From contig JANSWY010000002.1 in NCBI GenBank assembly GCA_024743255.1, forward strand, positions 310,001 through 374,000: 64,000 bases of DNA, given 5' to 3'. The notes under the pieces were generated by a model that saw only the letters and a list, made by a program, of their open reading frames with translations, was not told the origin of the DNA and ran no database searches. Made by a program: the position numbers and the translations under genes. This stretch comes from a bacterium. Its GTDB lineage: Bacteria > Bacteroidota > Bacteroidia > Cytophagales > Cyclobacteriaceae. This document shows positions 21,828-40,073 of this stretch, piece by piece; within the stretch, counting starts at the first letter, position 1; each line of letters opens with the position of its first letter.

Positions 21828-21884
21828 GTCGCTATATTACGGCTGCAACCTTCTCAAAACATTGACAAAGTCTGGAATAGAAAC

Positions 21885-21896
21885 TGACTTTTATCA
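21885..21896. promoter_or_regulatory. CRP/FNR-type operator in front of hemN
   Basis: TGACTTTTATCA is identical to the sites at 32244 and 35993. Its centre is about 63 bp upstream of the hemN start. It overlaps the stop codon of the upstream membrane-protein gene, so hemN has its own promoter despite the short spacer. Confidence 0.7.
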
Positions 21897-22586
21897 TATC
21901 GGTCCACAAGTTGTTATTTTCCCAAATCCTGCAGATTCCAACATTGGATCAATAAGTGGCAATTCAATTGCAACACCTCTATATATAAAAAGGACTGCAA
22001 GGCAAGCCATGAAGACAGGAATAACCTTCTGTAATTTCAATTTTGAAGATGGTTTAATCATTGGAATTAGAAAAGCAAAAAACATCATTGGCATAGTGCC
22101 TAATGAAAATATTGACATGTATAGTGCTCCTTCCAAATAAGTAGCTGTTACCAATGATCCAGCTATTGCCGCATATATCAAGCCGCATGGAAGAAAACCA
22201 TTTAAGATGCCAACCATAAATGTGGCTGGCATAGTTTTCTTTTTGAAGAAGAATCCAATTTTATTCTTCACCCATCGCATCCAGAGGCTATTGTAATAAT
22301 GTGATTGATATTTCTTTATAAATCTTGGAATGATGAGATAAAGAAGAATCAAAACACCAATGGAAATAGATAATATATGCTGATAACCAGATAATTGAAT
22401 TGCATATCCAATACTACCCAGAATCAAACCCAGGAACATATATGTGAGGGTTCTACCAAGATTATAAAACACAGCACCAAATATTCTAGACTCTCTTGGA
22501 ATTGGTAATGCCATTGCAATCGGTCCACACATTCCAATACAGTGAAGACTGCCAAAGAGACCGATGATGAATGCTGACCAATACAT
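21894..22586 (-). CDS. TauE/SafE- or DsbD-like membrane protein of the cbb3 operon
   Basis: This 230-aa protein has about six transmembrane helices and starts with SLHCIGMCGPIAMALP, the Cys-containing motif of the DsbD_2 / UreH-like membrane family. A second family block, NGFLPCGLIYAAIAGS, carries another Cys. Members sit at the end of cbb3 operons in many Bacteroidota and are thought to serve copper handling or thiol-redox steps in oxidase assembly. That role is inferred from context, not shown. The gene begins at the base after the fixH stop and is the last gene of the operon. Confidence 0.82.
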   Translation of the reverse strand: MYWSAFIIGLFGSLHCIGMCGPIAMALPIPRESRIFGAVFYNLGRTLTYMFLGLILGSIGYAIQLSGYQHILSISIGVLILLYLIIPRFIKKYQSHYYNSLWMRWVKNKIGFFFKKKTMPATFMVGILNGFLPCGLIYAAIAGSLVTATYLEGALYMSIFSLGTMPMMFFAFLIPMIKPSSKLKLQKVIPVFMACLAVLFIYRGVAIELPLIDPMLESAGFGKITTCGPI

Positions 22587-23009
22587 CTATCTTACAAATA
22601 GGTCTTGTTCCATGAAATAATTCTTGTTGCTATCCTTCCAGGTTACTTTGGCAACATATCTTCCTTGTTTCAATAGCTCATCGCTTACTGAATATTCAGA
22701 AGTTGTCAGTGGAAGCTTTTGGTCCAATTTATTATCATCTGGACGATAGAAATGTATGGTCCCGTTTACATTTTCTGTTGGAACTTTTATAGTGATTTTC
22801 TCACCATCATAATTAATGGAGGCCTCTCCTTTTAGTTCTGCACCATTTGCCTTGGCATCAATGACCTCTTGATATTGCAGTTCTTGTTGATAATAATCCT
22901 CGGAAACAAGATTCACATCATATTGAAAGCTTTTCACAACAATAGCAACAATGAAAGTACAGAAAAGTACAAATGCCACTACAATTCCATTTCCCCAATT
23001 AAGTTTCAT
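22587..23009 (-). CDS. fixH: FixH/CcoH family cbb3 assembly protein
   Basis: This 140-aa protein has one N-terminal membrane helix (GNGIVVAFVLFCTFIVAIVV) and a periplasmic immunoglobulin-like domain. The early YDVNLVSEDYYQQELQYQ segment and the ending RYVAKVTWKDSNKNYFMEQDLFV are typical of FixH. CcoH/FixH binds early cbb3 assembly intermediates. It lies between ccoG and the TauE-like gene with 17 bp and 0 bp spacing, which supports the call. Confidence 0.87.
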   Translation of the reverse strand: MKLNWGNGIVVAFVLFCTFIVAIVVKSFQYDVNLVSEDYYQQELQYQEVIDAKANGAELKGEASINYDGEKITIKVPTENVNGTIHFYRPDDNKLDQKLPLTTSEYSVSDELLKQGRYVAKVTWKDSNKNYFMEQDLFVR

Positions 23010-23026
23010 GATCTCTAATTTTTCAG

Positions 23027-24463
23027 TTACAAATTCGGACCCAGGAATTTGGTATCCACAGTCTCTAATAATTCTCCATTGCCGTACACTTCAATTTCTA
23101 CTTCACTTGACATGGAGGTAATTTTTTCTCTTGGTAAAACAACAAATAATGCGCCTGATGCTGTTCCTTGCTTGTTGAGTTTAAGCGCCTCACCAACTAG
23201 CTCAATTGTTGCTCCTTCAGTTTTGGGCTTAAGTTCGATACTAATCTCATCGTCTGTTTTATTGATGATTTTGATATTATAAAGATTGCTGATGGTTCCA
23301 TCATCTCTCTTCTGATACATTACTCCAGGAGTTCTAAGAATAGTGGTTTCTATATCTGATCTAGTTACAAGCATTCCAGTCAGAACAGTCATTAGAATTA
23401 CTAAAACACTGCTATATGCTACAACTCTGGTAGTAAATTTGAATGGAGTTCCCTTATCAATATTCTCTTCAGAAGCGTATCTGATCAAACCTCTTGGTTT
23501 GTCGATTTTATCCATAATCGAATCACATGCATCGATACAGGCAGTACAGTTTATACACTCAAGCTGGGTTCCGTTTCTAATATCAATTCCAGTTGGACAA
23601 ACTAAAACACACTGTTTGCAATCAATACAATCACCTTTCCCCTCAGCTGCTCTATCCTCTTTCTTTCTAAATTTTGCTCTTGTCTCTCCCCTCTTGTAAT
23701 CGTATCCAACAACCAAACTATTTCTATCCAACAATACACCCTGAAGCCTTCCATAAGGACAAACCTGCGTACAAACCTGATCTCTAAACCAGGCAAAAAC
23801 ACCATAAAATAATCCAGTTAGAATTACCATTGCGAAGAATCCTCCAAGGTTTTCTGTTGGAGGTGAGGTTACGATTTCAAAAGTTCTTTCCACACTGATG
23901 ATATAAGCCATAAACGTGTGCATAATGAGGAAAGAAATAATCAGGAAAATACTATGTTTAGAGACTCTTTTGATGATCTTCTCTGTATTCCATGGAGCCT
24001 TTTTCAGCTTTCGCTGAGCCATGTAATCACCTTCAATTAGGTATTCAATTCTTCTAAAGACAAATTCCATAAAGATGGTCTGCGGACAAATCCAACCGCA
24101 GAATATTCTTCCATATACTACGGTAAATAATATAACACTCACTACAAGTGTTATGAAAGCAATAGCAAATAGAAAGAAGTCCTGAGGCCAAAAGACAATT
24201 CCAAAGATCACGAATTTCCTTTCCAGGATATTGAATAACAAAAGTGGTTGCTCACCAATCTTAATAAATGGAGCACCGAATAAGAAAGTAAGTAGAACGA
24301 TACTTACCAAAGAACGCCATCTGAAAAATTTTCCAGATGGCTTCTTTGGGAATAGCCAAATTCTTTTGCCTTTCTCGTCTACTGTTGCAAGGTGATCACG
24401 GAAAGATTCATTTACTTCACTTTCCTTGTAGATCTCATCTAGCTGTTGGGTGTCGACTGCCAT
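23027..24463 (-). CDS. ccoG: Cytochrome c oxidase accessory protein CcoG (RdxA/FixG)
   Basis: This 478-aa membrane ferredoxin-like protein has an N-terminal region with about four helices and CGWICPQTIFMEF. CTQVCPYGR follows, then two 4Fe-4S motifs, CIDCKQCVLVCPTGI and CINCTACIDACD (about residues 260-310). A further helix and a C-terminal periplasmic beta-domain complete it. CcoG reduces copper during cbb3 oxidase assembly. The family is normally 450-500 aa, so it is full length. It follows ccoP with 3 bp spacing. Confidence 0.95.
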   Translation of the reverse strand: MAVDTQQLDEIYKESEVNESFRDHLATVDEKGKRIWLFPKKPSGKFFRWRSLVSIVLLTFLFGAPFIKIGEQPLLLFNILERKFVIFGIVFWPQDFFLFAIAFITLVVSVILFTVVYGRIFCGWICPQTIFMEFVFRRIEYLIEGDYMAQRKLKKAPWNTEKIIKRVSKHSIFLIISFLIMHTFMAYIISVERTFEIVTSPPTENLGGFFAMVILTGLFYGVFAWFRDQVCTQVCPYGRLQGVLLDRNSLVVGYDYKRGETRAKFRKKEDRAAEGKGDCIDCKQCVLVCPTGIDIRNGTQLECINCTACIDACDSIMDKIDKPRGLIRYASEENIDKGTPFKFTTRVVAYSSVLVILMTVLTGMLVTRSDIETTILRTPGVMYQKRDDGTISNLYNIKIINKTDDEISIELKPKTEGATIELVGEALKLNKQGTASGALFVVLPREKITSMSSEVEIEVYGNGELLETVDTKFLGPNL

Positions 24464-24466
24464 TAC

Positions 24467-25378
24467 CTATTGTAAAAGACTTACCTGATCTTCAACCACA
24501 GCGGTAGTATCAGATTCTTCACTTCCCGCTTCTCTCTCAAACAATTCTCCTTCAGGATCCTTAGGGTTAGATGGATTTGTTCCCTCCATGGTATAGATAT
24601 AACTAGCAATCTGCTGAATCTTTTTCGGATTGAACTGATTCTGCCAGGAGATCATTCCCTTCTCAGGAATACCATACTTAATACTTTTAAATATGTCTTT
24701 AATATCTCCACCATGCTTCCAGTATTTATCTGTAAGATTTGGACCAACTCCACCCTGTCCTTCAGAACCATGACATGCTACACAATTTGCGTCATACATG
24801 TTTTTACCAGAAGTCAGATCTGTATCTGCCAGTAATAATTCAACATTGGTCTCATCAACCAAATTCTCTTGTGTTGCAAGGAATTTCTCTACTTCAATTT
24901 TGGCTGCTGCCATTTCGTTTTTGTATTCCTCATCTTGTAGAGGTGCCCATTGGAAAACATGGTATGCCGCTAGGTAGACAACACTAAATGCTATAGTAAA
25001 GTAGAATCCCCAAAGCCACCATGGAGGAAGGTCATTATCTAACTCCTTAATACCATCATATTCATGGTCAGTAAGCAATGCTTCTTCCTCTTCTTCAGAT
25101 TTGAAGTCATTGATAGAATTCCAGATTCCAGTAAATGCAGAATCTTCCTGTACTAACTCACCCTTGCTTTCTTTGTCGAGTCTGACAAGTGACTGAATGG
25201 TGTAAAGTGCCACAAAGAGAACCAATAATGCTACCAAACAAACGACTACAACCAGTCCTAATACAATCTCAAGCTGGTATTGCTCAAAATATCCAACGGT
25301 TTCTGATGCCTCGCTTTGAGCCCAGGTTATTCCCGGAATCATAAGAAAAAAGGCCATTAAAATTTTTTTGATATTCAT
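24467..25378 (-). CDS. ccoP: cbb3 oxidase subunit III (CcoP), single haem c
   Basis: This 303-aa membrane-bound cytochrome c delivers electrons to the CcoN/CcoO core. It has a signal-like N-terminus and two membrane segments (about 35-60 and 118-140). The FixN-binding acidic stretch follows, then one cytochrome c domain with NCVACHGSEGQG (CxxCH 199-203), GVGPNLTDKYW and the Met ligand in GMISW. Proteobacterial CcoP has two CxxCH motifs; only one is present here. A charged tail ends it. The ATG overlaps the ccoQ stop by 4 bp, indicating translational coupling. Confidence 0.93.
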   Translation of the reverse strand: MNIKKILMAFFLMIPGITWAQSEASETVGYFEQYQLEIVLGLVVVVCLVALLVLFVALYTIQSLVRLDKESKGELVQEDSAFTGIWNSINDFKSEEEEEALLTDHEYDGIKELDNDLPPWWLWGFYFTIAFSVVYLAAYHVFQWAPLQDEEYKNEMAAAKIEVEKFLATQENLVDETNVELLLADTDLTSGKNMYDANCVACHGSEGQGGVGPNLTDKYWKHGGDIKDIFKSIKYGIPEKGMISWQNQFNPKKIQQIASYIYTMEGTNPSNPKDPEGELFEREAGSEESDTTAVVEDQVSLLQ

Positions 25379-25557
25379 TGTAGTTCGCTGTTTTCGTTCA
25401 AAGGAATATTTGATATTTCTTCAATATCCGATTTCTTAAGCTTGATCACATAAATGATAAGCACCGTGAAGAATATGAAGAAAATGAGTAGGGAAATCAG
25501 TGGGAATATTTCAATCCCCACTATAGTTTCCAAATGATGTTTTACATATCTAAGCAT
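25375..25557 (-). CDS. ccoQ: cbb3 oxidase subunit IV (CcoQ/FixQ)
   Basis: This 60-aa protein has one membrane helix (FPLISLLIFFIFFTVLIIYVI) followed by KLKKSDIEEI. That is the size and layout of CcoQ, which stabilises CcoP in the oxidase complex. Its position between ccoNO and ccoP, with a 4-bp overlap into ccoP, supports the call better than the sequence does. Confidence 0.85.
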   Translation of the reverse strand: MLRYVKHHLETIVGIEIFPLISLLIFFIFFTVLIIYVIKLKKSDIEEISNIPLNENSELQ

Positions 25558-25561
25558 GGCC

Positions 25562-27733
25562 TTAATCGTTTTCTTTTACTTTGATATCTGTTCCTAATCT
25601 CTGCAGGTAAGCGATCAGTGCAATAATCTCCCTGTCACTGCTTATTTCAATATCACTTGTAGCCAAATTTTTAGCAATGGCTTTAGCCTGTGTTTCTGCA
25701 TCTCCAAGCGCTTGAGACTCATAACCCTCTTCATAAGGGACTCCTAATGTTCTCATCGCAGATATTTTAGCCTCAGTAGAACCTTTGTCCCAATCCTGCT
25801 CAAATAACCATGGATATGGCGGCATTAATGACTCAGGAGACATACTTTCTGGTTCCAACATGTGGTTGAAATGCCAGCTATCAGGATATTTACCTCCAAC
25901 TCTAAGTAAGTCTGGACCTGTTCTCTTAGAACCCCAAAGGAATGGGTGGTCATATACAAATTCTCCAGCTTTTGAATACTCACCATATCTCTCAGTTTCT
26001 GATCTGAAAGGTCTGATCATTTGTGAATGACAGTTGCTACATCCCTCTCTGATATAAATGTCTCTACCATGTAATTCCAATGAAGTATATGGCTTCACAC
26101 TTGTGATGGTAGGAACATTAGATTTCACAAGGAACATTGGGACGAATTCCACTACTCCTCCTATCAACACAGCAATCAAACTCCAAACTAATAACCTAGC
26201 CGGTTTCCACTCGAAGAACTTTCTGTGCCAGTGATCACTAGATGGTGACTTGTATTCTTTCACCATCGCTGGAGCCTGAGCTTTAGTTTCAGTTTGGAAT
26301 TTACCAGCGTATGCTGTCTTAACAAGGTTATAGATCATGATAAGCGCACCAACAAGGAATAAGAATCCTCCAAATGCTCTTAGCATATACAATGGCTTGA
26401 TTTGAGTTACTGTTTCCAGGAAGTTCGGATAAGCTAACATACCTGTATCAGTAAATTCTTTCCACATTAAGCTTTGAGTAAATCCTGCCCAATACATTGG
26501 AAGCGCATAGAAGATGATTCCTAACGTACCAACCCAGAAGTGAGCATTTGCAAGCTTAGTAGAGAATATTTTGGTGTTATATAATTTCGGTATTAAATAA
26601 TACAACATGGCAAATGTCATGAATCCATTCCAACCTAACCCACCAACGTGTACGTGTGCTACAGTCCAGTCAGTGAAGTGAGTGATGGCATTGAATTTTT
26701 TAAGGGAAAGCATAGGACCCTCAAATGTGGCCATACCGTAACAGGTAACAGCAACCACCATAAATTTCAAAATCGGATCTTCTCTTACTTTGTCCCATGC
26801 TCCCCTTAGTGTGAACAGACCATTGAGCATTCCTCCCCAGGATGGCGCAATTAGCATGACACTAAATACAGTTCCTAAAGATTGTGCCCAATCCGGTAAA
26901 GCGTTATACAGCAAATGGTGCGGTCCTGCCCATATATATATGAATATTAGAGCCCAGAAGTGAACAATAGAAAGTCTGTACGAAAAGATTGGTCTACCCG
27001 AGGCTTTAGGAATGAAGTAATACATCAAACCCAAATATGGGGTGGTTAAGAAGAATGCAACAGCATTGTGACCATACCACCATTGTACCAGAGCATCCTG
27101 AACACCTGCATACCATGAGTAACTTTTAAACATTGCAATTGGTAACTCAAATGAGTTTACAATGTGTAACATGGCTACCGTCACGAAAGTGGCTATGAAA
27201 AACCAAATTGCAACATATAGGTGACGCTCTCTTCTTTTCAGTATGGTCATGAACATGTTTACACCGAAAACGACCCAGATTAATGCGATTGCGATATCAA
27301 TGGGCCATTCCAGTTCTGCATATTCTTTTCCAGTGGTTAGCCCTAATGGAAGGGTGATTGCTGCCGAAAGAATGATTAATTGCCATCCCCAAAAGTGTAT
27401 GTTACTTAAGAGATCGCTAAACATCCTGGTCTTACACAACCTTTGCAGGGAATAGTAGACTCCTGCAAAAATACCGTTACCCACAAATGCAAAAATAATT
27501 GCATTAGTGTGCAATGGCCGTATCCTACCAAAAGTAGTGTACTGAAGTCCGAAGTTAAGATCTGGTAAAAACATTTGGCAGGCAATCAATAGACCTACCA
27601 GCATGCCGACAATACCAAAGATAGATGCCGCAATTAAGAACTTGCGGACTGTGGCATTATCGTAGTAGAAAGTTTCTAATCCCGCTGAACCTTCAGGTTT
27701 GGAGATTTCTGGTTCAATTGTGACTGTTGACAT
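25562..27733 (-). CDS. ccoN: Fused cbb3 oxidase subunits I and II (CcoN-CcoO)
   Basis: This 723-aa protein joins the haem-copper catalytic subunit to the membrane cytochrome c subunit, a fusion known in Bacteroidota. The CcoN part (to about residue 490) has twelve or so helices. Its haem and CuB ligands are in RPLHTNAII (His75), WWYGHNAVAFFL, AGPHHLLYNALPDWAQ and TDWTVAHVHVGGLGWNGF. The CcoO part (from about 495) has a helix and one CxxCH (SNCH at 565-569 in GCSNCHSQMIRPF), with Met ligands later. It reduces O2 to water with high affinity. The ccoS gene overlaps its 5' end by 58 bp. Confidence 0.96.
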   Translation of the reverse strand: MSTVTIEPEISKPEGSAGLETFYYDNATVRKFLIAASIFGIVGMLVGLLIACQMFLPDLNFGLQYTTFGRIRPLHTNAIIFAFVGNGIFAGVYYSLQRLCKTRMFSDLLSNIHFWGWQLIILSAAITLPLGLTTGKEYAELEWPIDIAIALIWVVFGVNMFMTILKRRERHLYVAIWFFIATFVTVAMLHIVNSFELPIAMFKSYSWYAGVQDALVQWWYGHNAVAFFLTTPYLGLMYYFIPKASGRPIFSYRLSIVHFWALIFIYIWAGPHHLLYNALPDWAQSLGTVFSVMLIAPSWGGMLNGLFTLRGAWDKVREDPILKFMVVAVTCYGMATFEGPMLSLKKFNAITHFTDWTVAHVHVGGLGWNGFMTFAMLYYLIPKLYNTKIFSTKLANAHFWVGTLGIIFYALPMYWAGFTQSLMWKEFTDTGMLAYPNFLETVTQIKPLYMLRAFGGFLFLVGALIMIYNLVKTAYAGKFQTETKAQAPAMVKEYKSPSSDHWHRKFFEWKPARLLVWSLIAVLIGGVVEFVPMFLVKSNVPTITSVKPYTSLELHGRDIYIREGCSNCHSQMIRPFRSETERYGEYSKAGEFVYDHPFLWGSKRTGPDLLRVGGKYPDSWHFNHMLEPESMSPESLMPPYPWLFEQDWDKGSTEAKISAMRTLGVPYEEGYESQALGDAETQAKAIAKNLATSDIEISSDREIIALIAYLQRLGTDIKVKEND

Positions 27734-27888
27734 TTATCATCAGGTTTAAGTTGATCATCGTACAGTATCCTAACTGAAGGTGAGTAATCATCCTCGTACT
27801 GTCCATCAGTCTGGGCCCATATGAATGCTCCCAAAAACCCTAATGCAACTAACATGCTTACCCCTATCAATAAGAATATGACAATCAT
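27676..27888 (-). CDS. ccoS: cbb3 oxidase assembly protein CcoS
   Basis: This 70-aa protein is a single membrane helix (MIVIFLLIGVSMLVALGFLGAFIWA) followed by QTDGQYEDDYSPSVRIL. The G-Q-(Y/F)-(D/E)D-hydrophobic pattern after the helix is characteristic of CcoS, which is needed for cofactor insertion. It overlaps the 5' end of ccoNO by 58 bp in another frame, so the longer CcoNO start should be checked. It is the first gene of the operon, 74 bp from the nearer operator. Confidence 0.85.
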   Translation of the reverse strand: MIVIFLLIGVSMLVALGFLGAFIWAQTDGQYEDDYSPSVRILYDDQLKPDDKCQQSQLNQKSPNLKVQRD

Positions 27889-27958
27889 TTCAATTTTTAT
27901 TTTTGCTAAAATGATAATTGCGAGGAGTTCTGCTTATGAGCAATAACAGAGGGAAATC

Positions 27959-27970
27959 TGACTTATGTCA
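27959..27970. promoter_or_regulatory. CRP/FNR-type operator 1 of the cbb3 operon
   Basis: TGACTTATGTCA is a perfect 4+4 palindrome (TGAC-N4-GTCA), centred about 76 bp upstream of the ccoS start. It is the exact reverse complement of operator 2. Confidence 0.7.
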
Positions 27971-28002
27971 GCTCAATTTCATAAACACAGGGGAATATTA
28001 TT

Positions 28003-28014
28003 TGACATAAGTCA
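28003..28014. promoter_or_regulatory. CRP/FNR-type operator 2 of the cbb3 operon
   Basis: TGACATAAGTCA is centred 44 bp from operator 1, about four helical turns away and on the same DNA face. It lies within the ccoI-ccoS gap (27889-28041). Confidence 0.7.
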
Positions 28015-28041
28015 TAATTCCCCTATGGTCTGATTTGCTAA

Positions 28042-30429
28042 CTAAAATTTTAAAGATTTTTTTGCCATGAAATTGATAGCCAGGGTTACAAAACCTACTA
28101 CAGTAACTGAACTAATAGGCATCAAAACAGCTGAAATAAGTGGTGTAAGGAAGCCTAATACGGCAAAACTCATCCCTATAAAATTGTACAAAAAGGAAAG
28201 AATAAATGCAGCATATACAATACGAAGTGAGGCTTTGCTGAACCGTAAAAACTTAGGAAAGTGCACTAGCTGATCTCCTTTTATAATGGCATCACAAGCT
28301 GGAGAAAACTGATGTAAGTCTTCTACTACTGAGATTCCAACATTGGCTGCTGTCAAGGCACCTGCATCATTCAATCCGTCACCAATCATGGCTGAGTTGG
28401 ACTCATCCGTCAACTGAATATGATTGAGCTTATCCTTTGGTCTTTGATTAAATAATAATCGATGAAAGTATGGGGATAACTGGTCATACGAGGCGTTGTT
28501 ATCACCAGAAACCAAATGCATCTCATATTCCGGCTTCATTTCGGTTAGGCTATCCAGAATTCCAGATTTCAATGTGGCTTTCATGACATAATAACCTAAT
28601 TGTTCCCCCTCTATCTCGACAAATACTACTGATTCTTCTGAATCAATTTCATGTCCCTTTGGTGCTGCTCCTACAAAAACTGATAAGCCATTTATAATCG
28701 CGGTGATACCTCTGCCCTTTTCTTCTTCGAATGATTCTGTTGTTAGAATATCAACATCCTGATAATGTGTTGCAATCATTCGGCTGTAAGGATGCATACT
28801 GTTGCTACATGCTGTCTTGATTAATTGCTTAGATGATTCTGTTAAAACTGGACCAACCCATTTTAAGTTGCTAGTCTGAGATGTAGTGATTGTTCCTGTC
28901 TTATCAAATACTAATAGCTTCAACTTGGCCAGATGTTCTATTATCGAGGCATTCTTCAAATAGAATCCTTTGCTTCCAAAAACTCTTAGAACATGTCCAT
29001 ATGTAAATGGTACTGCAAGAGCCAATGCACAAGGACAAGCAACGATTAAAACAGAAGTAACAGTATTCCAAATCTTTGAAGGATCTATAACTGCCCAATA
29101 ACCAGCAGTCACAGCAGCTATAATTAGAATAGCGATTGTGAAATAGCTACTAATACCATCTATAGCTGTCTGAAGATTGTTCTTTTCATTCTTCATACTG
29201 GATTGATTCCAGAGTGAAGTCAGATAACTGGAGGATACTTCTTTGACGATTTCTACCTTTACAAGGCTACCAAAATGCCTGCCTCCGGCATAAACCAAAT
29301 CTCCTACTGATTTCCTGTGAGGATCCGATTCACCCGTAACAAAGCTGTAATCCACAGAAGAAATACCCTCTACAATGGTACAATCTGCAGGAATCACCTC
29401 CTGGTTTCTGATTAGTAATTGATCACCTACCTTTAACTCTTCAATAGGTATATAATTAGATCCTTGATCATCTACTTTGTTTACAGCAATTGGGAAGAAT
29501 GATTTATAGTCACGATCAAAAGCTAACGCTCTATAAGTCTTATTCTGGTACCATTTGCCTATCAATAAAAAGAAGACCAACCCACATAAAGAGTCACTAT
29601 ATCCCGCGCCAGTTTGTGACAAAATCTCGTATGTACTTCTAATAAACAATGTCAAAATCCCAAGAGATATTGGCACATCAATCCCTAAAAACTTGTTCTT
29701 TAGACCAGCATATGCAGACTTGAAATAATCAGCTGATGAGTACAATAAAACAGGTAAAGTGAAGAGTATATTCAGAATTCCAAAATATTGGCTGAACATA
29801 TCCAAACCAAGGAATGACTCATCCAGATAATGCGGTAAGCTGATCAGCATTGAATTTCCAAAAAAGAATCCAGCTACAGCTAATTTGATAATTAGGCTTT
29901 TGCTATAACTATCAGTCGACTTCTCTTTTGACTTTCTTTTTAGATCAGGCTCATAGCCAATTGAGCAAAGGAAGTTGACTAACTTCTGTAAAGAAACTAC
30001 GGAACTGTCATACAATACTGCAGCTTCTTTTTTTATAAAGTTTACCCTGGATTGCTTGACACCTGGTATAATGGTTGTAAGGTTTTCCAGAAGCCAAATA
30101 CAACTGCTACAATGAATAGCTGGAAGCTTCAACGTAATCTTTTCAATATTTTCATTCTTGAAATCTAATAGTCCCTTTACAATTTCCTCATTTTCAAGAT
30201 AGTCAAACTTGTGAGTAGAAGAATTTGATTTGGTACCAGGAGCGCCGTTTAGCTCGTAGTAAGTTTCAAGATTGTTATCCTTTAGAATGTCATATACCGT
30301 AACACAACCATGACAGCAAAATTCTTTGCTGTCATGATTTATGACCTCTTCACAATTGTCTCCGCAATGGAAACAGGTGCTTTGAGTAGAGTGGTTTATG
30401 GAATTACCTTCAGTTAGTTTTGTACTCAT
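28042..30429 (-). CDS. ccoI: Copper-exporting P1B-type ATPase for cbb3 assembly (CcoI/FixI)
   Basis: This 795-aa protein supplies copper for oxidase maturation. The N-terminus has a Cys-rich metal-binding segment (CFHCGDNCEEV, CCHGC, residues 19-42) and an HMA-like domain with HCSSC (Cys107, Cys110). Eight helices are interrupted by the actuator domain (SSVDYSFVTGESDPH). Helix 6 carries ACPCALALAVP, the P-domain has DKTGTITT, and the hinge has IGDGLNDAGAL. The CPC motif and N-terminal Cys-rich segment fit FixI. It starts at the last base of the upstream usp gene (1-bp overlap), so it is co-transcribed with two Usp genes, not with ccoNOQP. Confidence 0.93.
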   Translation of the reverse strand: MSTKLTEGNSINHSTQSTCFHCGDNCEEVINHDSKEFCCHGCVTVYDILKDNNLETYYELNGAPGTKSNSSTHKFDYLENEEIVKGLLDFKNENIEKITLKLPAIHCSSCIWLLENLTTIIPGVKQSRVNFIKKEAAVLYDSSVVSLQKLVNFLCSIGYEPDLKRKSKEKSTDSYSKSLIIKLAVAGFFFGNSMLISLPHYLDESFLGLDMFSQYFGILNILFTLPVLLYSSADYFKSAYAGLKNKFLGIDVPISLGILTLFIRSTYEILSQTGAGYSDSLCGLVFFLLIGKWYQNKTYRALAFDRDYKSFFPIAVNKVDDQGSNYIPIEELKVGDQLLIRNQEVIPADCTIVEGISSVDYSFVTGESDPHRKSVGDLVYAGGRHFGSLVKVEIVKEVSSSYLTSLWNQSSMKNEKNNLQTAIDGISSYFTIAILIIAAVTAGYWAVIDPSKIWNTVTSVLIVACPCALALAVPFTYGHVLRVFGSKGFYLKNASIIEHLAKLKLLVFDKTGTITTSQTSNLKWVGPVLTESSKQLIKTACSNSMHPYSRMIATHYQDVDILTTESFEEEKGRGITAIINGLSVFVGAAPKGHEIDSEESVVFVEIEGEQLGYYVMKATLKSGILDSLTEMKPEYEMHLVSGDNNASYDQLSPYFHRLLFNQRPKDKLNHIQLTDESNSAMIGDGLNDAGALTAANVGISVVEDLHQFSPACDAIIKGDQLVHFPKFLRFSKASLRIVYAAFILSFLYNFIGMSFAVLGFLTPLISAVLMPISSVTVVGFVTLAINFMAKKSLKF

Positions 30430-31307
30430 TAAGCAACTGTTTCCTTGATTTCAGATTTTTTAGGTTTATTCTTTTTCACGTTCAATGAGAAAATCGGGAT
30501 ATTAGAATGATTTGCAACCTTTTCTGTAAGACTGTGGAAAAACAAGTGTGCTAGTCCTGTTCGTCCATGTGTAAACATCGCAATCATATCCGCCCCTACC
30601 TCGTGGCTGAAATTCAATATTCCATCATAAGGGTTGAAATTCCTTCGTACGTTAATTGTGAAGTTTTCAAATTTATTCTCTTTGGTAAGCTCCTGAAGAT
30701 TTTGTGTAACAACATTTTCATTCTCCAATTCATGAGGAGTATTAACCCATAAAAAGTGAATTGTACTGTTTGTCAGAGTCTGCAAATTCTTTACCTCTTC
30801 CAACAGAGTTACACCAATTTCATCATCGTCGTAAGCGACAACAATGTTCTTTACATCCTTCATCTCAGCTGATGCAGGTACAGCAACAACAGGGCACTTT
30901 GCAAATCGAATTGCTCTTTCCGTATTGGAACCTATTAAAATCTCCTTCAGACCAGTAGCACCAGTGGTACCCATAATGATCATGAATGGATTAAGATTCT
31001 CTACGTCATACTTAAACCATTGCGTTAAGTTTCCGGTCTCCACACGCTTTGTAAATTTCACATTTTCCTGTGCATACTTTTCTGCAAGAGTGGATAATTT
31101 ACTTTCAGCGTTTTCTATCATTTCTGTAAGTAAATCCTGAATCAATTGTGCGTTTACCATAGTGTACTCAGCCCCAACTGTTGCTGGCATTGTCACTACG
31201 TGAAGCAACACAATATCTATTGGATCCTCCTTGAATAGATTTGTTGTGAATTCCAACGACCTTTCAGATGCCTCTGAGAAGTCTACTGGGACTAAGATCT
31301 TCTTCAT
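30429..31307 (-). CDS. Universal stress protein, two Usp domains
   Basis: This 292-aa tandem-Usp protein has a first Usp domain (about 1-145) with the ATP-binding loop MGTTGATGLKEILIGSNTERA (Gly-x2-Gly-x9-Gly-Ser-Asn). The second domain (about 150-280) has a less typical loop, FTHGRTGLAHLFFHSLTEKVANHS. Usp proteins bind ATP and are induced by stress; in facultative anaerobes they often follow low oxygen. It sits between another usp gene (24 bp upstream) and ccoI (1-bp overlap). The operator at 32244 in front of the first usp suggests that the whole run is induced at low oxygen. Confidence 0.9.
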   Translation of the reverse strand: MKKILVPVDFSEASERSLEFTTNLFKEDPIDIVLLHVVTMPATVGAEYTMVNAQLIQDLLTEMIENAESKLSTLAEKYAQENVKFTKRVETGNLTQWFKYDVENLNPFMIIMGTTGATGLKEILIGSNTERAIRFAKCPVVAVPASAEMKDVKNIVVAYDDDEIGVTLLEEVKNLQTLTNSTIHFLWVNTPHELENENVVTQNLQELTKENKFENFTINVRRNFNPYDGILNFSHEVGADMIAMFTHGRTGLAHLFFHSLTEKVANHSNIPIFSLNVKKNKPKKSEIKETVA

Positions 31308-31331
31308 CTCTTTAAAAATTTAATGTTATAA

Positions 31332-32171
31332 CTAAACTTTTACAGTTAATACAGGCTTCTTAGAGTGATTTGCAACTGACTCAGCTCTACTTCCCCATAA
31401 TAAATGAGGTACTCCTGTGTATCCATGTGTTCCCATAAATATTAAGTCCGCACCTATCTTTTGGGAGAACTCCAGAATACCATCCTCTACAAATGGTGAG
31501 TCAATCACATTAATGGTGAAATTGTCAAACTCTTCATCCTTAGCAAATCTTTGCAATTCACTTTTTGCAGATTCAGAAGTGTAAGACCACCTATTGGTAT
31601 TATATACCTTAAGCAAGTGAACATTTATTCCAAGAAGCTCCTGAATATACTTCGCCAACTTCACACTCTGATTATGACCAAAATCGGTAGCATATACCAT
31701 GTTTTTAATAGCGGTCAAATCAGTTGGTTCTTTAATCGTAATTACCGGAACCTCGCTATGTCTGATAACTTTCTCAGTATTTGATCCAATCAGAATCTCC
31801 TGTAATCCACTTGCTCCTGTGGACCCCATGATAATCAGATCAAAACCGTTTTCTGTGATTTTATTATAGATATGTTTGAATATATTACCTAATTTCAAAT
31901 GGGATGTAGTCTCAACTCCTGCTGATGTTGCTTGATCTTCCCACTCTTGAAGAGTTGCTTTAGTTTTCTCTATAAGCTTGGTAGTGAAGACATTATCAAA
32001 ATCATCATTTGAGCTATAAGCTTCGCCCATTATACTGAATGAGCTAGATGGCAACTCTAAGACATGTAATAATGTAATACTTGCATTAGCCTTCTTCGCC
32101 CATTGAATAGCAAAATCCAACGCGTATTGCGCTTCTTTCGAAAAATCCGTGGGTACTAGTATGTTGTTCAT
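31332..32171 (-). CDS. Universal stress protein, two Usp domains
   Basis: This 279-aa protein has the same layout as the neighbouring usp. The first ATP-binding loop is MGSTGASGLQEILIGSNTEKV and the second is MGTHGYTGVPHLLWGSRAESVA. The N-terminus is VPTDFSKEAQYALDFA. It is the first gene of a usp-usp-ccoI operon. The 144-bp divergent region to the usp at 32316 holds a TGACTTTTATCA operator. Physiological role cannot be read, but context points to low-oxygen adaptation. Confidence 0.9.
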   Translation of the reverse strand: MNNILVPTDFSKEAQYALDFAIQWAKKANASITLLHVLELPSSSFSIMGEAYSSNDDFDNVFTTKLIEKTKATLQEWEDQATSAGVETTSHLKLGNIFKHIYNKITENGFDLIIMGSTGASGLQEILIGSNTEKVIRHSEVPVITIKEPTDLTAIKNMVYATDFGHNQSVKLAKYIQELLGINVHLLKVYNTNRWSYTSESAKSELQRFAKDEEFDNFTINVIDSPFVEDGILEFSQKIGADLIFMGTHGYTGVPHLLWGSRAESVANHSKKPVLTVKV

Positions 32172-32243
32172 GATTGAAACTTTTTTATTACAATTTAATG
32201 GGAGGGCGCATTTATTGATAAGGCCTTAAGTCAACCACTGAAA

Positions 32244-32255
32244 TGACTTTTATCA
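32244..32255. promoter_or_regulatory. CRP/FNR-type operator between divergent usp genes
   Basis: TGACTTTTATCA is exactly the hemN and PAS-kinase site. Its centre lies about 78 bp from the minus-strand usp start and 66 bp from the plus-strand usp start, so it could serve either or both. Confidence 0.7.
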
Positions 32256-32315
32256 GCCCAATTCCATTTGGTCAACTCTATATTTATTGATATGAAGACT
32301 TAAAATACTATTCCA

Positions 32316-33146
32316 ATGGAAACGATCAACAATATTCTTGTAGCAACTGATTTCTCCTTAAATGGAGCAAAGGCCATTAATTATGCCGCTAGCTTGGCTT
32401 CACAGTTTAAATCCAGATTAATCATTCTACACGTGGAAGATGATCGGCAAAAACAATACATCAGTAGTGAAAAATATGAAAGCTATTCGGAATACGTTAA
32501 GTCCAACTTCAACAAAATTTCATCGGAGTACCTGAACTATAAAAAGGTAGATCATAGTCTTCTACATAAAAAAGGAATTATTTCATCCCAAATCGTGGAA
32601 ACCGCTCAAGGAGAAAATGCTGATCTGGTACTTGTTGGAATTAGCGGATTGAATAAAGGGTTTGAGTTAGAATTTGGGAGTGTTACTTTAAAAATTCTAA
32701 ATCAACTGACTTGCCCAATTATTGTAGTTCCAGAATCGTATACTTCATTAAGTCTTAATAATATTATGATCGCTACAGATCAATTGATGCCCGAGAAGGA
32801 AGAAGATACTTCCATGATTAATGAATTAATAAGGAAGTTCGATAGCAATGTATATATGGTTTCAGTAGGTCAATCAGGTGCCGTATATTCCGAGAACTAT
32901 CGTAAACTTATTGACAAGACGATTGTTTTTGCGGATAAGGAACCAATCAACTCACATCGGGATGAAATCATAGAACAACTTAATGCTGAAGCAAAGGCGC
33001 ATCATGCTGATCTTGTGGTAGTCTACAGACGAAAGAATTCCCTTACAGGAAATCAGTTCACTCCTCGCCTATCTAATTTGATTGCTATTAATATGGAGAT
33101 TCCAATTTTGTTCATTCCATGTGAAGATTCAGTTATTACTGACTAA
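32316..33146 (+). CDS. Universal stress protein, two Usp domains
   Basis: This 276-aa protein's N-terminal domain starts ILVATDFSLNGAKAINYAASLA and has the loop VGISGLNKGFELEFGSVT, in which the usual Gly-x9-Gly-Ser is kept. The second half (IMIATDQLMPEKEEDTSM) is less conserved and lacks an obvious ATP-binding glycine loop (VVYRRKNSLTGNQF). It is divergent from the usp-usp-ccoI operon and shares its operator region. It ends 48 bp upstream of the TonB-like gene. Confidence 0.87.
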   Translation: METINNILVATDFSLNGAKAINYAASLASQFKSRLIILHVEDDRQKQYISSEKYESYSEYVKSNFNKISSEYLNYKKVDHSLLHKKGIISSQIVETAQGENADLVLVGISGLNKGFELEFGSVTLKILNQLTCPIIVVPESYTSLSLNNIMIATDQLMPEKEEDTSMINELIRKFDSNVYMVSVGQSGAVYSENYRKLIDKTIVFADKEPINSHRDEIIEQLNAEAKAHHADLVVVYRRKNSLTGNQFTPRLSNLIAINMEIPILFIPCEDSVITD

Positions 33147-33151
33147 GATCA
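33140..33151. promoter_or_regulatory. Possible weak CRP/FNR-type site before the TonB-like gene
   Basis: TGACTAAGATCA fits TGAC-N4-RTCA but overlaps the stop codon of the usp gene. It occurs only once and could be chance. It lies about 50-80 bp before the tonB-like start. Confidence 0.25.
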
Positions 33152-33194
33152 CCATAAAAGGTAATCAGAGTCATGAAATAATCATGGTTTCTTG

Positions 33195-34043
33195 ATGAGA
33201 TTGAGATCGAACAAAACAACAAAGACCATGTTAACTTTTGATCAGAATACACAAACCCTAATAGATCAGCCAGACCCTGCCACGCTGCTTCTCAAAAAGC
33301 CAAAAGTGAATAAAGAAGCTAAAAAAAGAGAAGAGCAGGCGCGATTGATGACTGAGCTGATGGATATGAAAAAAAAGAGAGATGCCGACAACCACCAACG
33401 CAGCAAACTCTTTCTTGCCATTGGATTTACATTAAGTCTTTTAATGGTAATTGTAGCATTCGAATGGAAAACCTACGACAATGGTGAGTTAATGGATCTT
33501 GGAACGGTAAAAGCCGATTTTGATGAAATCGCAGACATTGAACTTACCCAGCAACCACCCCCACCACCTCCAACTAACAAAATCATTCAACCTGTATTCA
33601 AGGAAGTTCCAGATGATGTGGAGCTAGAAGAATTGGAAACAGTGGTTGACGTAGAAATGACTGAGGATCTAGCGATAGAGGAAGTCGTTTACGAAGAGGT
33701 AGAAATGGAAGAAGAAATGGTTGAAGAAATCTTCAGTATTGTGGAAACACAACCAGAACCGGTAGGTGGATTGCAAGAGTTTTATAAGTACGTATCTGAT
33801 AATCTTGACTACCCACTAGCCGCAAGAAAAATGGGTGTTGGAGGAAAAGTATTTGTACGGTTTGTTGTTGAAAAGGACGGTTCTATAACAAACGTTGAAG
33901 TTATTAGAGGAATAGGTCATGGCTGTGATGAAGAAGCAATCCGGGTAATTGCAAACGCACCAGACTGGAAACCAGGTAAGCAGCGAGGTAATCCAGTGAG
34001 AGTGTATGCAATGGTACCAATATTTTTCATTTTCAGAGATTAA
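33195..34043 (+). CDS. Energy transducer TonB-family protein
   Basis: TonB-type protein of about 282 aa. It has an N-terminal cytoplasmic stretch with a charged helix (AKKREEQARLMTELMDMKKK), one membrane helix (about 62-80), and a periplasmic Pro-rich segment (QQPPPPPPTNK). A very acidic Glu/Val-rich linker follows, then a TonB C-terminal domain (about 195-282) with YPLAARKMGVGGKVFVRFVV, EEAIRVIANAP and VRVYAMVPIFF. The domain spans the periplasm to open TonB-dependent receptors. Start choice is uncertain: ATG at 33195, a TTG at 33192, or ATG at 33228 (MLTFDQ), which removes 11-12 residues. No exbB/exbD is adjacent. A terminator follows. Confidence 0.85.
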   Translation: MRLRSNKTTKTMLTFDQNTQTLIDQPDPATLLLKKPKVNKEAKKREEQARLMTELMDMKKKRDADNHQRSKLFLAIGFTLSLLMVIVAFEWKTYDNGELMDLGTVKADFDEIADIELTQQPPPPPPTNKIIQPVFKEVPDDVELEELETVVDVEMTEDLAIEEVVYEEVEMEEEMVEEIFSIVETQPEPVGGLQEFYKYVSDNLDYPLAARKMGVGGKVFVRFVVEKDGSITNVEVIRGIGHGCDEEAIRVIANAPDWKPGKQRGNPVRVYAMVPIFFIFRD

Positions 34044-34073
34044 CCATAGCCTAGTAAGTTCATGGTCGTAATT

Positions 34074-34103
34074 AAGCGCAGATTCCTAGTCTGCGCTTTT
34101 TTT
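34074..34103 (+). terminator. Intrinsic terminator after the TonB-like gene
   Basis: AAGCGCAGA pairs perfectly with TCTGCGCTT across a 7-base loop, followed by T residues to 34103. Confidence 0.85.
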
Positions 34104-34144
34104 ATGAAAGGGATATTATCAAATTATCTTGTTTATATTGAATT

Positions 34145-35539
34145 ATGGATGTTGAAATAAGATTCTTGGGAGCAGCCAAGTCAGTTACTGGATCAAAGTA
34201 TTTATTAAGAATAGATGGTGAAGCATATATGGTGGATTGTGGGCTATTTCAGGGTCCAAGTAATATGAGAAGAAGAAACTGGGAAGATGTGGTTGAGCAT
34301 CCGGATAAAATTAAAGAAGTATTTCTTACTCATGCACATATAGATCACTCAGGATATCTTCCCAGGCTAGTAAAGAAAGGATTTAAGGGCAAGATTTATT
34401 GCACAAAAGCTACTGCTGCCTTACTAAAAATAATGCTTCTAGATGCTGGGAAACTCCAGGAGGAAGAAGCTAAATGGGCATATAAAAAGGGTTACTCAAC
34501 TCATAAGAATCCTGAACCACTATTTACAACAAAAGACGCTGAGAAGTGCCTGGAATTGGTCCATACTTGTGAATATGACCAGACAGTATTAGTAAATGAT
34601 AGAATTCAACTGGTATTTAGAAATGCCGGACATATCCTGGGTTCCGCAATGATCGAGATGAAGCTTATTGGTGATAACATGTCAAAGGAGATCTTATTCT
34701 CGGGAGATCTGGGTAAACATAAGCAACATATGCACGAAGCTCCGTTTGTTAAGGAATCAACGGATGTGCTTTTAGTAGAATCAACATATGGAGACAGAAA
34801 TACTCCAGACATTGATCCGATAAGTGCTTTTGGTGAAATAATAAATGAGGCAGTTGCCGACGGTTGTTTGATCATTCCGTCATTTGCAGTGGGGAGAACT
34901 CAGCAGATCCTTTACTACCTTTATAGGCTTCACAAAAACAAGCAGATCCCTGAAAATATTAGGGTATTTGTCGATAGTCCAATGGCTATTAATGTCACCG
35001 CTTTATATAAAAATTTTAAAAGCGATCATAAATTAGAAATTGAAGATAAAAATCACTCAGTATTTGACGCTGCTTTCATTCGATATATCAATGCCCAAGA
35101 GGACTCAATTAATCTGAATTTGATCAGAAAGAATACGATCATTATCTCGGCCAGTGGAATGGTAACCGGAGGCAGAATACTTCACCATATGTATCATCGG
35201 TTACCAAATAAAAAAGACACAATCCTGTTTGTTGGTTATCAAGCAGAAGGAACCAAGGGTAGAGAAATCTTATCAGGTGAAAATGATGTCAGTATTTTTG
35301 GTATCAATGTACCTGTAAAAGCAAAAATCAGAGAACTGGATGGATTGTCAGCACATGCTGATATGAAGGATTTACATCAATGGCTAGGAAATTTCAAAGA
35401 GAAGCCGAAGAGAACATTTATAGTACATGGAGAGGAAATGGCAGCTCAGGCCTTGCAGAATCATCTGGTTTCAGAAGAATGGTCGAATGTAATTATTCCT
35501 GACTTTCTGGAATCGTTTAAGTTATTTCAAAGCATTTGA
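34145..35539 (+). CDS. Beta-CASP metallo-beta-lactamase-fold RNA hydrolase
   Basis: This 464-aa protein has the zinc motif THAHIDHSG (His63, His65, Asp67, His68), later AGHILGSAM, GDLGKH and VESTYGDR. The beta-CASP insertion follows (DSPMAINVTALY, ISASGMVTGGR, LDGLSAHADMKDLHQW). That combination matches the archaeal/bacterial CPSF-like RNase family. These enzymes process or degrade RNA; substrate and direction cannot be inferred. It is single, with its last 13 bp overlapping the convergent usp gene. Confidence 0.92.
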   Translation: MDVEIRFLGAAKSVTGSKYLLRIDGEAYMVDCGLFQGPSNMRRRNWEDVVEHPDKIKEVFLTHAHIDHSGYLPRLVKKGFKGKIYCTKATAALLKIMLLDAGKLQEEEAKWAYKKGYSTHKNPEPLFTTKDAEKCLELVHTCEYDQTVLVNDRIQLVFRNAGHILGSAMIEMKLIGDNMSKEILFSGDLGKHKQHMHEAPFVKESTDVLLVESTYGDRNTPDIDPISAFGEIINEAVADGCLIIPSFAVGRTQQILYYLYRLHKNKQIPENIRVFVDSPMAINVTALYKNFKSDHKLEIEDKNHSVFDAAFIRYINAQEDSINLNLIRKNTIIISASGMVTGGRILHHMYHRLPNKKDTILFVGYQAEGTKGREILSGENDVSIFGINVPVKAKIRELDGLSAHADMKDLHQWLGNFKEKPKRTFIVHGEEMAAQALQNHLVSEEWSNVIIPDFLESFKLFQSI

Positions 35540-35943
35540 GGTGCTCCGTTATTTAAAGTTGCTGGAGGTACAACGACCACTGGAATATTCATCGATTTAA
35601 TGATATCTGGAATTCGGCTAACAGATGTATCCTTTTGTTCATCAAGTCCAACAACTACGATATCAGCACCATCATTTTGAATATAGTCGGAAATCGCCTT
35701 TTCTAAAATACCTTTTCTAAGTATCCCTCCTATTTCCAGATTATAAATCTCAGAAAGATTTGAGCTCAGGTTCCTCAGCTTCTCCTCAATCATCTCATTA
35801 TAACTGTCGTCATCTATAGAAGTCACATGCAAAATAGACATGCTTGCTTTACTCGTTTTGGCCAGTTTTATCCCCGCTAATACCGCCTGCCAACTTGCTG
35901 ATGAAAAGTCAGTCGGCACTAAAACTTCCTGAAAGTTTTCCAT
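35527..35943 (-). CDS. Universal stress protein, single Usp domain
   Basis: This 138-aa single-domain protein starts EVLVPTDFSSASWQAVLAGIK and ends PVVVVPPATL. The ATP-binding loop is poor (VVGLDEQKDTSVSRIPDIIK, without the Gly-x9-Gly-Ser), so nucleotide binding is doubtful. It is divergent from the PAS kinase, with the operator at 35993 in the shared 119-bp promoter region. It overlaps the 3' end of the beta-CASP gene by 13 bp. Confidence 0.85.
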   Translation of the reverse strand: MENFQEVLVPTDFSSASWQAVLAGIKLAKTSKASMSILHVTSIDDDSYNEMIEEKLRNLSSNLSEIYNLEIGGILRKGILEKAISDYIQNDGADIVVVGLDEQKDTSVSRIPDIIKSMNIPVVVVPPATLNNGAPQML

Positions 35944-35992
35944 TAATAATTACTTTAAGACCAAAAATAGAAGGATCATTATTTTATATTCA

Positions 35993-36004
35993 TGACTTTT
36001 ATCA
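35993..36004. promoter_or_regulatory. CRP/FNR-type operator between usp and the PAS-kinase/receiver-CRP operon
   Basis: TGACTTTTATCA is exactly the hemN and 32244 motif, centred about 64 bp before the kinase start and 55 bp before the usp start. If the receiver-CRP protein binds it, the regulator controls its own operon. Confidence 0.7.
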
Positions 36005-36062
36005 GATTTACTGGTGATATATTTATCAGTGAACCCTTAAGTGATTTAATAAATTAGCCAAA

Positions 36063-38661: not shown

Positions 38662-38743
38662 GGTAAGGTGGTGGGGTAAAATAACTCAATAGCGTTTTAC
38701 CCTATATTGTCAATTACTAAGTTTATTTTTTGCAGCTGAAGAG

Positions 38744-38768
38744 AGCACCTCATTTTGGGGTGCTTTTT
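38744..38768 (+). terminator. Intrinsic terminator after the receiver-CRP gene
   Basis: AGCACC pairs with GGTGCT (extendable with a T-G pair) and runs into five T residues. It ends just before the convergent SpoIIE-phosphatase gene. Confidence 0.8.
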
Positions 38769-38769
38769 C

Positions 38770-39564: not shown

Positions 39565-39596
39565 TAAATGATTTAAATAGCCGATTTAGCTCAAAG

Positions 39597-40073
39597 CTAT
39601 TCAAATCCTACGACAACATAGGCCTCATAGTTTTTCCATTTTATAGGAATTACATAAACCGATCTGTTGGAAGGGAATTGTAACTCATCAGGATTGCCTT
39701 CAAAAACTACCGGGACCGAGATCATAAAGTTTGTTCCAAGGTTAGCTCGTACGTTACCTGCTACTACATTAGAAATTTCTCCTGCCATATCCAGGATATC
39801 CTCATTAGAAGGTTCATCAATTCCAATAAACATACTAATCAGGTCAACAAGCATATTCTTCTCTGCAGAAAAATATACAAACCCCTTTCTATTACCTGAA
39901 ACCCTGATCATTCCTGTGAAGTCCTTTAGTTTTAGGTCTTCAGTTTCCTTTAAGTAGGGAATACTCATCTCGGAATCAACTTCAGTAAGTACTTTAAAAT
40001 AATTACTTACTGAATCAATAAACAGTTTACAGGTAGCTTCAAATTCTTCGCGTCTTCTTTCCATCTTATACAT
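39597..40073 (-). CDS. cheX: CheX-type CheY-P phosphatase
   Basis: About 158 aa from the chosen start. CheX-family fold with one active-site pair, MAGEISNVVAGNVRANLG, in which the Glu and Asn (E-x2-N) are the residues that dephosphorylate CheY-P. It ends YVIPIKWKNYEAYVVVGFE. The frame is open back to 40118, which would overlap cheY by 53 bp; I chose 40073 (MYKMERR), giving an 8-bp overlap, and 40064 is also possible. It sits directly after a CheY, its likely substrate. Confidence 0.82.
   Translation of the reverse strand: MYKMERRREEFEATCKLFIDSVSNYFKVLTEVDSEMSIPYLKETEDLKLKDFTGMIRVSGNRKGFVYFSAEKNMLVDLISMFIGIDEPSNEDILDMAGEISNVVAGNVRANLGTNFMISVPVVFEGNPDELQFPSNRSVYVIPIKWKNYEAYVVVGFE

Follow-up and report, generated by a model that had tools for sequence, protein, structure and literature searches.

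Which protein reads the palindrome TGAC-N4-RTCA that recurs before hemN, a cbb3 oxidase operon, several usp genes and the gene of a PAS-domain histidine kinase in a bacterium of the Cyclobacteriaceae (Bacteroidota)? The question arises from a stretch of 64,000 nucleotides (contig JANSWY010000002.1, positions 310,001 to 374,000), referred to below as the window, in which a 14-kb block from 21885 to 36004 carries five such sites. A preliminary description of this DNA had taken the palindrome for the shared operator of a low-oxygen regulon and had connected it with a regulator encoded beside the kinase, in which a response-regulator receiver is fused to a CRP-type protein (receiver-CRP). Our analysis indicates that the operator, with the core TGAY-N4-RTCA, belongs to a clade and not to one protein, and that it is usually composed of two sites 22-23 bp apart rather than of a single palindrome. 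We consider it probable that the clade is one of FNR-family activators and that, in this genome, the receiver-CRP is the member that reads the operator, switched by the neighbouring FixL-like kinase.

The five sites were all found where they had been placed: TGACTTTTATCA at 21885, 32244 and 35993, and TGACTTATGTCA at 27959, with its complement at 28003. They stand upstream of the cbb3, hemN, usp and kinase genes, as had been proposed, with the reservation that the site at 21885 is not wholly intergenic, because it overlaps the stop codon of the upstream open reading frame (ORF) 21894-22586. In the window, the pattern TGACNNNNRTCA was matched 13 times, counted strand-wise, at 10 places (mean 5.28 in 100 shuffles, one of which reached 13), three of these places (2305, 11539 and 46200) lying inside genes. 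In the whole genome, a 6.6-Mb draft of 192 contigs (6,618,636 bases), TGACTTWTRTCA had 12 matches, and the reversed control had 7. Five of the 12 fall in the block, but since the pattern was picked from this block that count is post hoc, and the independent test is the search for dyads in other genomes. Among the other seven, two lie within genes, and five lie between genes or overlap a gene edge; the neighbours of these five are hemA, a Usp gene, a DUF4856 gene, the gene of a Na_sulph_symp-type transporter and small ORFs near a ferritin.

For the independent test we used the 80 listed loci of named genomes with relatives of the receiver-CRP (1.31 Mb, 123,751 intergenic bases), to which the counts in this paragraph refer unless another number of sites is given. 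All 4-mer dyads with spacers of 0-12 were counted in intergenic DNA, and rows arising from N runs were dropped. The two strongest dyads were TGAC-N4-GTCA (40 observed, 1.5 expected) and TGAT-N4-ATCA (87 observed, 6.8 expected). The core dyad TGAY-N4-RTCA, a trait of FNR/FixK-class operators, is over-represented upstream of the targets, which bears out the earlier assignment of the pattern to the FNR/CRP class as far as the core is concerned. The box of iron-sulphur (Fe-S) FNR is TTGAT-N4-ATCAA, and its outer T is missing from most sites: at 224 sites, read on both strands, the base outside TGA was T in 13%, A in 47% and C in 31%. The motif preceded ccoNO in 17/19 regions, hemN in 7/7, ccoI in 7/8, the kinase gene in 42/66 and usp279-like genes in 11/15; the figure for genes unlike any gene of the window was 141/588. 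Genes within operons were almost devoid of it (ccoP 0/17, ccoH 0/5, ccoG 1/9). As a control, 23 permuted half sites were used, whose means were low even though the highest of them, CGAT, is unclean, since its degenerate form contains TGAT-N4-ATCA. The operator is conserved at orthologous promoters of other genomes, and many window genes, the targets cbb3, hemN, ccoI and usp among them, recur around the receiver-CRP in the loci of relatives. Among the matches listed, the nearest relatives of the receiver-CRP in named genomes were those of Ekhidna lutea (58% identity) and of a Marinoscillum metagenome-assembled genome (60%), which makes it likely that our bacterium belongs to the Cytophagales. 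The receiver-CRP was also seen in metagenome-assembled records titled Chryseobacterium gleum (L071) and Azovibrio restrictus (L124), which are probably misassigned bins.

The spacing of the sites was more informative than the single palindrome, which had been described as the unit. Perfect sites in these loci were 22 bp apart in 25 pairs and 23 bp apart in six, any other spacing being found at most twice, and a partner matching six of eight positions lay 22-23 bp away at 168 of the 224 sites (pairs at other offsets: mean 13.9, maximum 21). Of 146 genomes, among them our own, 74 held the perfect tandem pattern and 2 its reversed control. Among 246 gene-site pairs, a TA(N2-3)TTTG box started 57 bp after the start of the site 28 times and 35 bp after it 23 times, with 4 and 3 for the next distances; a difference of 22 between the two peaks would be expected were the perfect site sometimes the distal and sometimes the proximal one. 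The -7 box TAnnTTTG has been placed at -12 to -5 in Flavobacterium psychrophilum (PMC9723704). From the box distances and this position, site centres at -41.5 and -63.5 are predicted. A centre at -41.5 is the usual position of a class II activator.

A matrix of the distal site, the proximal site and the -7 box was then trained on 193 promoters from genomes other than ours and applied to both strands of the window. The highest composite scores were obtained for the promoters of ccoS-ccoNO (27.2), usp276 (25.1), usp279 (24.9), a TonB_C ORF (24.4) and usp138 (17.7); the next, 16.8, was the ccoS-ccoNO pair read in the opposite direction. The best scores of five random windows were 10.2-14.1. The site before the TonB_C ORF, at 33140, had been overlooked in the preliminary description, and its score is close to those of the two best usp promoters. 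One tandem operator each lies between the divergent promoters of usp276 and usp279 and of usp138 and the kinase gene. The elements of the block are as follows.

21832..21839, minus strand: weak -7 box TAATATAG (4/6) of hemN, at the expected +57 offset
21863..21874, minus strand: degenerate partner (4/8 positions), 22 bp closer to hemN, from the pairing analysis
21885..21896, minus strand: operator TGACTTTTATCA, distal site of the hemN promoter, overlapping the stop codon of ORF 21894-22586; composite score 10.6, in the random range
27937..27948, minus strand: proximal partner (6/8) in the ccoS-ccoNO promoter, from pairing and the composite model
27959..27970, minus strand: operator, distal site of the ccoS-ccoNO promoter, scoring highest in the window under the composite model (27.2)
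28003..28014, no strand assigned: another perfect operator, which lies upstream of 27959 by 44 bp (2 x 22), from pattern match and pairing
32222..32233, no strand assigned: partner site (6/8), 22 bp from 32244, from pairing and the composite model
32244..32255, no strand assigned: operator common to the divergent usp276 (plus strand, proximal) and usp279 (minus strand, distal), from the pattern and the composite model
32279..32286, plus strand: -7 box TATATTTA (5/6) of usp276, +35 from 32244
33140..33151, plus strand: operator TGACTAAGATCA with a 7/8 partner 22-23 bp downstream, upstream of the TonB_C ORF 33192-34043; composite score 24.4
35962..35969, minus strand: -7 box TATTTTTG (6/6) of usp138, +35 from 35993
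35993..36004, no strand assigned: operator common to the divergent usp138 (minus strand, proximal) and the PAS kinase gene (plus strand, distal), from the pattern and the composite model
36015..36026, no strand assigned: partner site (5/8), 22 bp from 35993, from pairing
36050..36057, plus strand: -7 box TAAATTAG (5/6) of the PAS kinase gene, +57 from 35993

In the genome as a whole, the tandem with a -7 box, allowing at most three mismatches, matched nine times (reversed control 0), and two of the nine are in the block. Other matches adjoin a usp gene, from which an ORF that fits no known family diverges, and DUF4136, FHA and YceI genes; a further one lies by a divergent pair of Rrf2 and cytochrome c genes, and one more inside a gene.

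The genes of the block follow in the order hemN, a DsbD_2 protein, ccoH, ccoG, ccoP, ccoNO, ccoS, ccoI, three usp genes, the TonB_C ORF, a beta-CASP metallo-hydrolase, a fourth usp gene, the PAS kinase and the receiver-CRP. Those discussed here are listed below.

20472..21827, minus strand: HemN-type radical SAM protein by family match, which we take to be HemN; target
25562..27733, minus strand: CcoN-CcoO fusion of the cbb3 oxidase, by family match; target
27700..27888, minus strand: CcoS (FixS family), first gene behind the 27937/27959 pair, its frame open at least to 27700
28042..30429, minus strand: CcoI-type copper P-ATPase, by family match
31332..32171, minus strand: tandem-Usp protein usp279, target
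32316..33146, plus strand: Usp protein usp276, target
35527..35943, minus strand: Usp protein usp138, target
36063..37628, plus strand: PAS histidine kinase, with a FixL-like PAS containing His63
37621..38661, plus strand: receiver-CRP regulator (REC domain, cNMP-binding fold and HTH_Crp_2), candidate reader of the operator

For the TonB_C protein (33192-34043), behind the operator pair 33140-33173, the listed TTG start precedes the predicted transcription start, and the ATG at 33228 is the likelier one. A composite score of 15.9 was also noted at 42952-43016 on the plus strand, with no plus-strand gene soon after it. An Rfam scan of window positions 20000-40000 gave no match at the gathering score.

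The receiver of the receiver-CRP carries the response-regulator signature, with D11, D54, T84 and K106 invariant in 30 proteins. When 30 such regulators are compared, their CRP domains group together with a support of 100/100. The predicted structure, with a mean predicted local distance difference test score (pLDDT) of 81 and a predicted template modelling score (pTM) of 0.41, is informative on the domain folds only; the top structural match of the CRP fold was 4ev0. At the positions that contact cyclic AMP (cAMP), assumed by us to be Glu72, Arg82 and Ser83 of CRP, the alignment to 4ev0 has Gln, Tyr and Thr. The receiver-CRP lacks the N-terminal Cys ligands of FNR and has the receiver there instead; its sole Cys, C53, is next to D54. 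The recognition helix, GTATESVIR, had been called FNR-like, which is correct for the Glu and the Arg; the Ser of FNR is replaced by Ile.

The PAS domain of the adjacent kinase matched FixL best (1e-13), DosP also being matched, and the FixL alignments shown were free of gaps. Kinases next to receiver-CRPs (69, our own included) were compared by pairwise alignment to this PAS. His63 aligns with the haem histidine of FixL, and of the 62 kinases with an alignable PAS, 60 have it. We infer from the target genes and the FixL-like PAS that the regulon functions at low oxygen; low oxygen as the signal itself would be a sound guess on the same grounds.

To see where the operator occurs, the two regulator families were assigned by E-value thresholds of 1e-50 and 1e-70, chosen in the analysis, with counts that ignore ancestry. 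Of 88 genomes of the family, nine held both receiver-CRP and FNR, 31 the receiver-CRP only, 36 FNR only and 12 neither (Fisher one-sided 8e-7, ancestry uncorrected). The FNR proteins of ten relatives, all above the threshold, have an N-terminal CxxC (10/10) and a helix that is mostly GTATETVIR or GTATETLIR. The search for upstream sites covered 450 bp, or 327 and 448 bp in two cases, with a chance of about 0.06 per region by shuffles. We used 24 of 25 hemN matches, 25 of 30 for ccoNO and 30 of 31 for hemA, the rest lacking an N-terminus or a locus; possible paralogues are the hemA matches of 27-30% identity (G005, G083, G015, G056) and the hemN matches of 41% (G005, G083). A ccoNO site was present in 11/11 receiver-CRP genomes, and the composite promoter in 11/11 for ccoNO and 7/10 for hemN, compared with 3/14 and 5/14 in other genomes and 0/77 in the reversed control. 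Taken together, 18/21 receiver-CRP regions had it vs 8/28 others (p 1e-4). As the model was trained on loci near receiver-CRP genes, it may favour receiver-CRP genomes; the count of partners was made without it. Where a ccoNO or hemN region had a site, it also had a partner in 15/17 cases from receiver-CRP genomes vs 7/19 from other genomes (p 0.002, ancestry uncorrected), and several genomes with FNR only or neither had a single site at the -41.5 distance. The hemN region of one receiver-CRP genome, G059, was without a site and scored -1.7. For hemA, a TGAY site was found in 6/12 regions of 11 receiver-CRP genomes, in 2/10 with FNR only and in 2/8 with neither; a -7 box of 5-6/6 stood at +35 in five of the six receiver-CRP regions with a site. 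Composite scores of at least 14 were reached by 2/11, 1/10 and 1/8, respectively, a second copy in G059 (-3.3) being uncounted. In G001 (same genus), G008 and G042, receiver-CRP, FNR, hemN and ccoNO were all absent at the thresholds, and the hemA regions had no site. The largest numbers of perfect tandem operators among the 146 genomes, 14 and 13, were in G010 and G017. G017 had neither the receiver-CRP nor the FNR clade at these thresholds, but several related CRPs; G056, a draft of 270 contigs, had seven tandem operators, and neither protein was found in it at the same thresholds.

How do other explanations fare? A common AT-rich palindrome spotted by eye would fit the single-site counts, with a window count reached by one shuffle in 100 and a genome count of 12 next to a control of 7. 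We rejected it, and regard its probability as negligible, on the grounds of the de novo enrichment in independent genomes, the fixed 22-bp pairing, the fixed distance to the -7 box and the near-zero reversed controls. A more substantial challenge concerns the reader, and several observations weigh against the receiver-CRP in this role or against the regulon as drawn. The ccoNO site is also found in 7/9 genomes with FNR only and in 5/5 with neither; for hemN the figures are 5/10 and 2/4, vs 6/10 with the receiver-CRP. Tandem operators per genome averaged 2.06 with the receiver-CRP only, 1.47 with FNR only, 2.17 with neither and 1.11 with both. As genomes without the receiver-CRP have the operator, the motif alone does not single this protein out, and we rejected the view that the operator is private to it. 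In our own genome, the hemN and kinase promoters (10.6 and 10.0) score in the random range, with each box at the expected offset, and the idea of a shared regulon operator, well borne out at the orthologous promoters of relatives, fits these two weakly. The hemA gene has the 12-mer without a good partner or -7 box, and we do not count it as a firm member of the regulon here. On the side of the signal, the GIGR Arg of FixL is kept in 35/62 kinase PAS domains and 7/69 kinases are without this PAS, whose haem binding is a prediction from sequence.

Another CRP/FNR protein of the same genome, P0004 (contig C116) or P0003 (contig C168), might read the operator, the receiver-CRP having a different target. 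Relatives without the receiver-CRP retain the operator; P0004 is 42% identical to the FNR of a relative, and its gene is preceded by two TGAY-N4-RTCA sites (L015:2245, 2406), so that P0004 too could take part in operator reading. Its helix, RESLGR, resembles that of CRP, whose half site is TGTGA, and is unlike the GTATE[ST]VIR of receiver-CRPs and of several relatives' FNR. P0003 (L017:1465-2178), which adjoins a second glutamyl-tRNA reductase gene, has an FNR-type N-terminal CxxC...C and the helix DEQVIR, but 12 loci of its type (L159-L170) had no intergenic operator site and were enriched instead in CGTA-N4-TACG (9 observed vs 0.22 expected), possibly the own operator of such proteins; we thought P0003 an unlikely reader. 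To find genomes in which the receiver-CRP was the sole candidate, 36 of 45 HTH_Crp_2 matches were read, eight (G059, G061, G065) having been left out and one being without an ORF. Of four relatives, two encode another CRP-family protein that has a Glu-Arg helix, namely G063 (L331, REVVSR) and G036 (L343, REVISR), which is a further point for competing readers. In G033 and G047, where every HTH_Crp_2 match was read, only the receiver-CRP has such a helix, the others being of the SRQTVT- or RVV(I/V)SR-type without Glu, or not CRP-like, and the operator is present at ccoNO and hemA (G033) and at hemN (G047). On balance, a different reader in our genome seems improbable. It is less far-fetched, though still rather unlikely, that receiver-CRP and FNR both bind the operator where they co-occur and that the receiver-CRP brings a signal other than oxygen (redox, nitric oxide, light or copper) to the same targets. 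The nine genomes with both proteins and the breadth of the kinase PAS family, with the incomplete conservation noted above, would agree with this; the near-exclusive distribution of the two proteins speaks against it, as does the overlap of the targets cbb3, hemN, ccoI and usp with the FnrN/FixK set elsewhere (cco, hemA, hemN; PMC4999443).

We return to the receiver-CRP as the probable reader. In the mechanism that we propose, TGAY-N4-RTCA would serve an FNR-family activator clade in Bacteroidota as the site of class II activation, centred at -41.5 and in many cases accompanied by another at -63.5, two helical turns upstream. In our genome the receiver-CRP would bind it, and the adjacent kinase would phosphorylate Asp54 and thereby switch the regulator, while the kinase gene and the divergent usp138 would be controlled from a common operator pair. 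Two proteins would then do the work of the three-step FixL-FixJ-FixK cascade, with receiver and FNR-type activator fused into one. More tentatively, as a possibility of which we are only half persuaded at best, the fused receiver-CRP may have taken over the regulon of Fe-S FNR across Bacteroidota, replacing cluster chemistry by a haem-PAS kinase and phosphorylation and reducing FixL-FixJ-FixK to two genes, with phosphorylated receivers seating two dimers side by side on the 22-bp tandem (-63.5/-41.5). Tandem promoters might then dominate in receiver-CRP genomes because phosphorylated receivers aid side-by-side dimers.

The literature that we searched, with most subscription journals and RegPrecise outside its scope, described for Bacteroidota neither a regulon of a receiver-CRP nor FNR-type sites in 22-bp tandem, and held little on low-oxygen control in environmental members of the phylum. 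In F. psychrophilum, oxygen limitation induces the cbb3 oxidase and haem-synthesis enzymes, no such regulator being named in the accessible part of the article (PMC9723704), and CRP/FNR homologues of Flavobacteriales and Saprospiraceae are treated as MalR-like in another (PMC8510549). A portable promoter model of two sites 22 bp apart and a -7 box would make the regulon readable in many genomes, and the split between FNR and receiver-CRP would be a natural experiment, in which the sensor is swapped and the operator kept.

Among known systems, the receiver-CRP shares its fold with the cAMP receptor CRP and differs from it at the cAMP contacts. With Fe-S FNR it has in common the TGAT-N4-ATCA core, the -41.5 position and the Glu and Arg of the recognition helix; it differs in the missing N-terminal Cys motif, in the change of Ser to Ile and in the mostly A or C outside TGA. 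The CxxC-type FNR of related bacteria (L189-L197, L202), whose Fe-S nature is presumed, has the helix GTATETVIRLLS(E/D)FK in L192-L195, L197 and L202, with close variants in the rest, vs GTATESVIRVLSEFK in the receiver-CRP, and tandem operators lie near L189-L197, loci picked for having them. It is unlike the receiver-CRP in having CxxC (10/10 read) where the latter has its receiver, and in that the ccoNO and hemN promoters are paired less often. The FixL-FixJ-FixK cascade of Alphaproteobacteria, with FnrN/FixK sites and the targets cco, hemA and hemN (PMC4999443), likewise combines a FixL-type PAS kinase, a receiver and a CRP/FNR-type activator. Here, by contrast, one fused receiver-CRP replaces FixJ and FixK, the site lacks the outer TT...AA of TTGANCNNGATCAA, usp genes are prominent and the sites are arranged as 22-bp tandems. 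The cascade, its sites and its targets are known, and what is new here is the pairing of sites at 22-23 bp and their fixed geometry relative to the -7 box.

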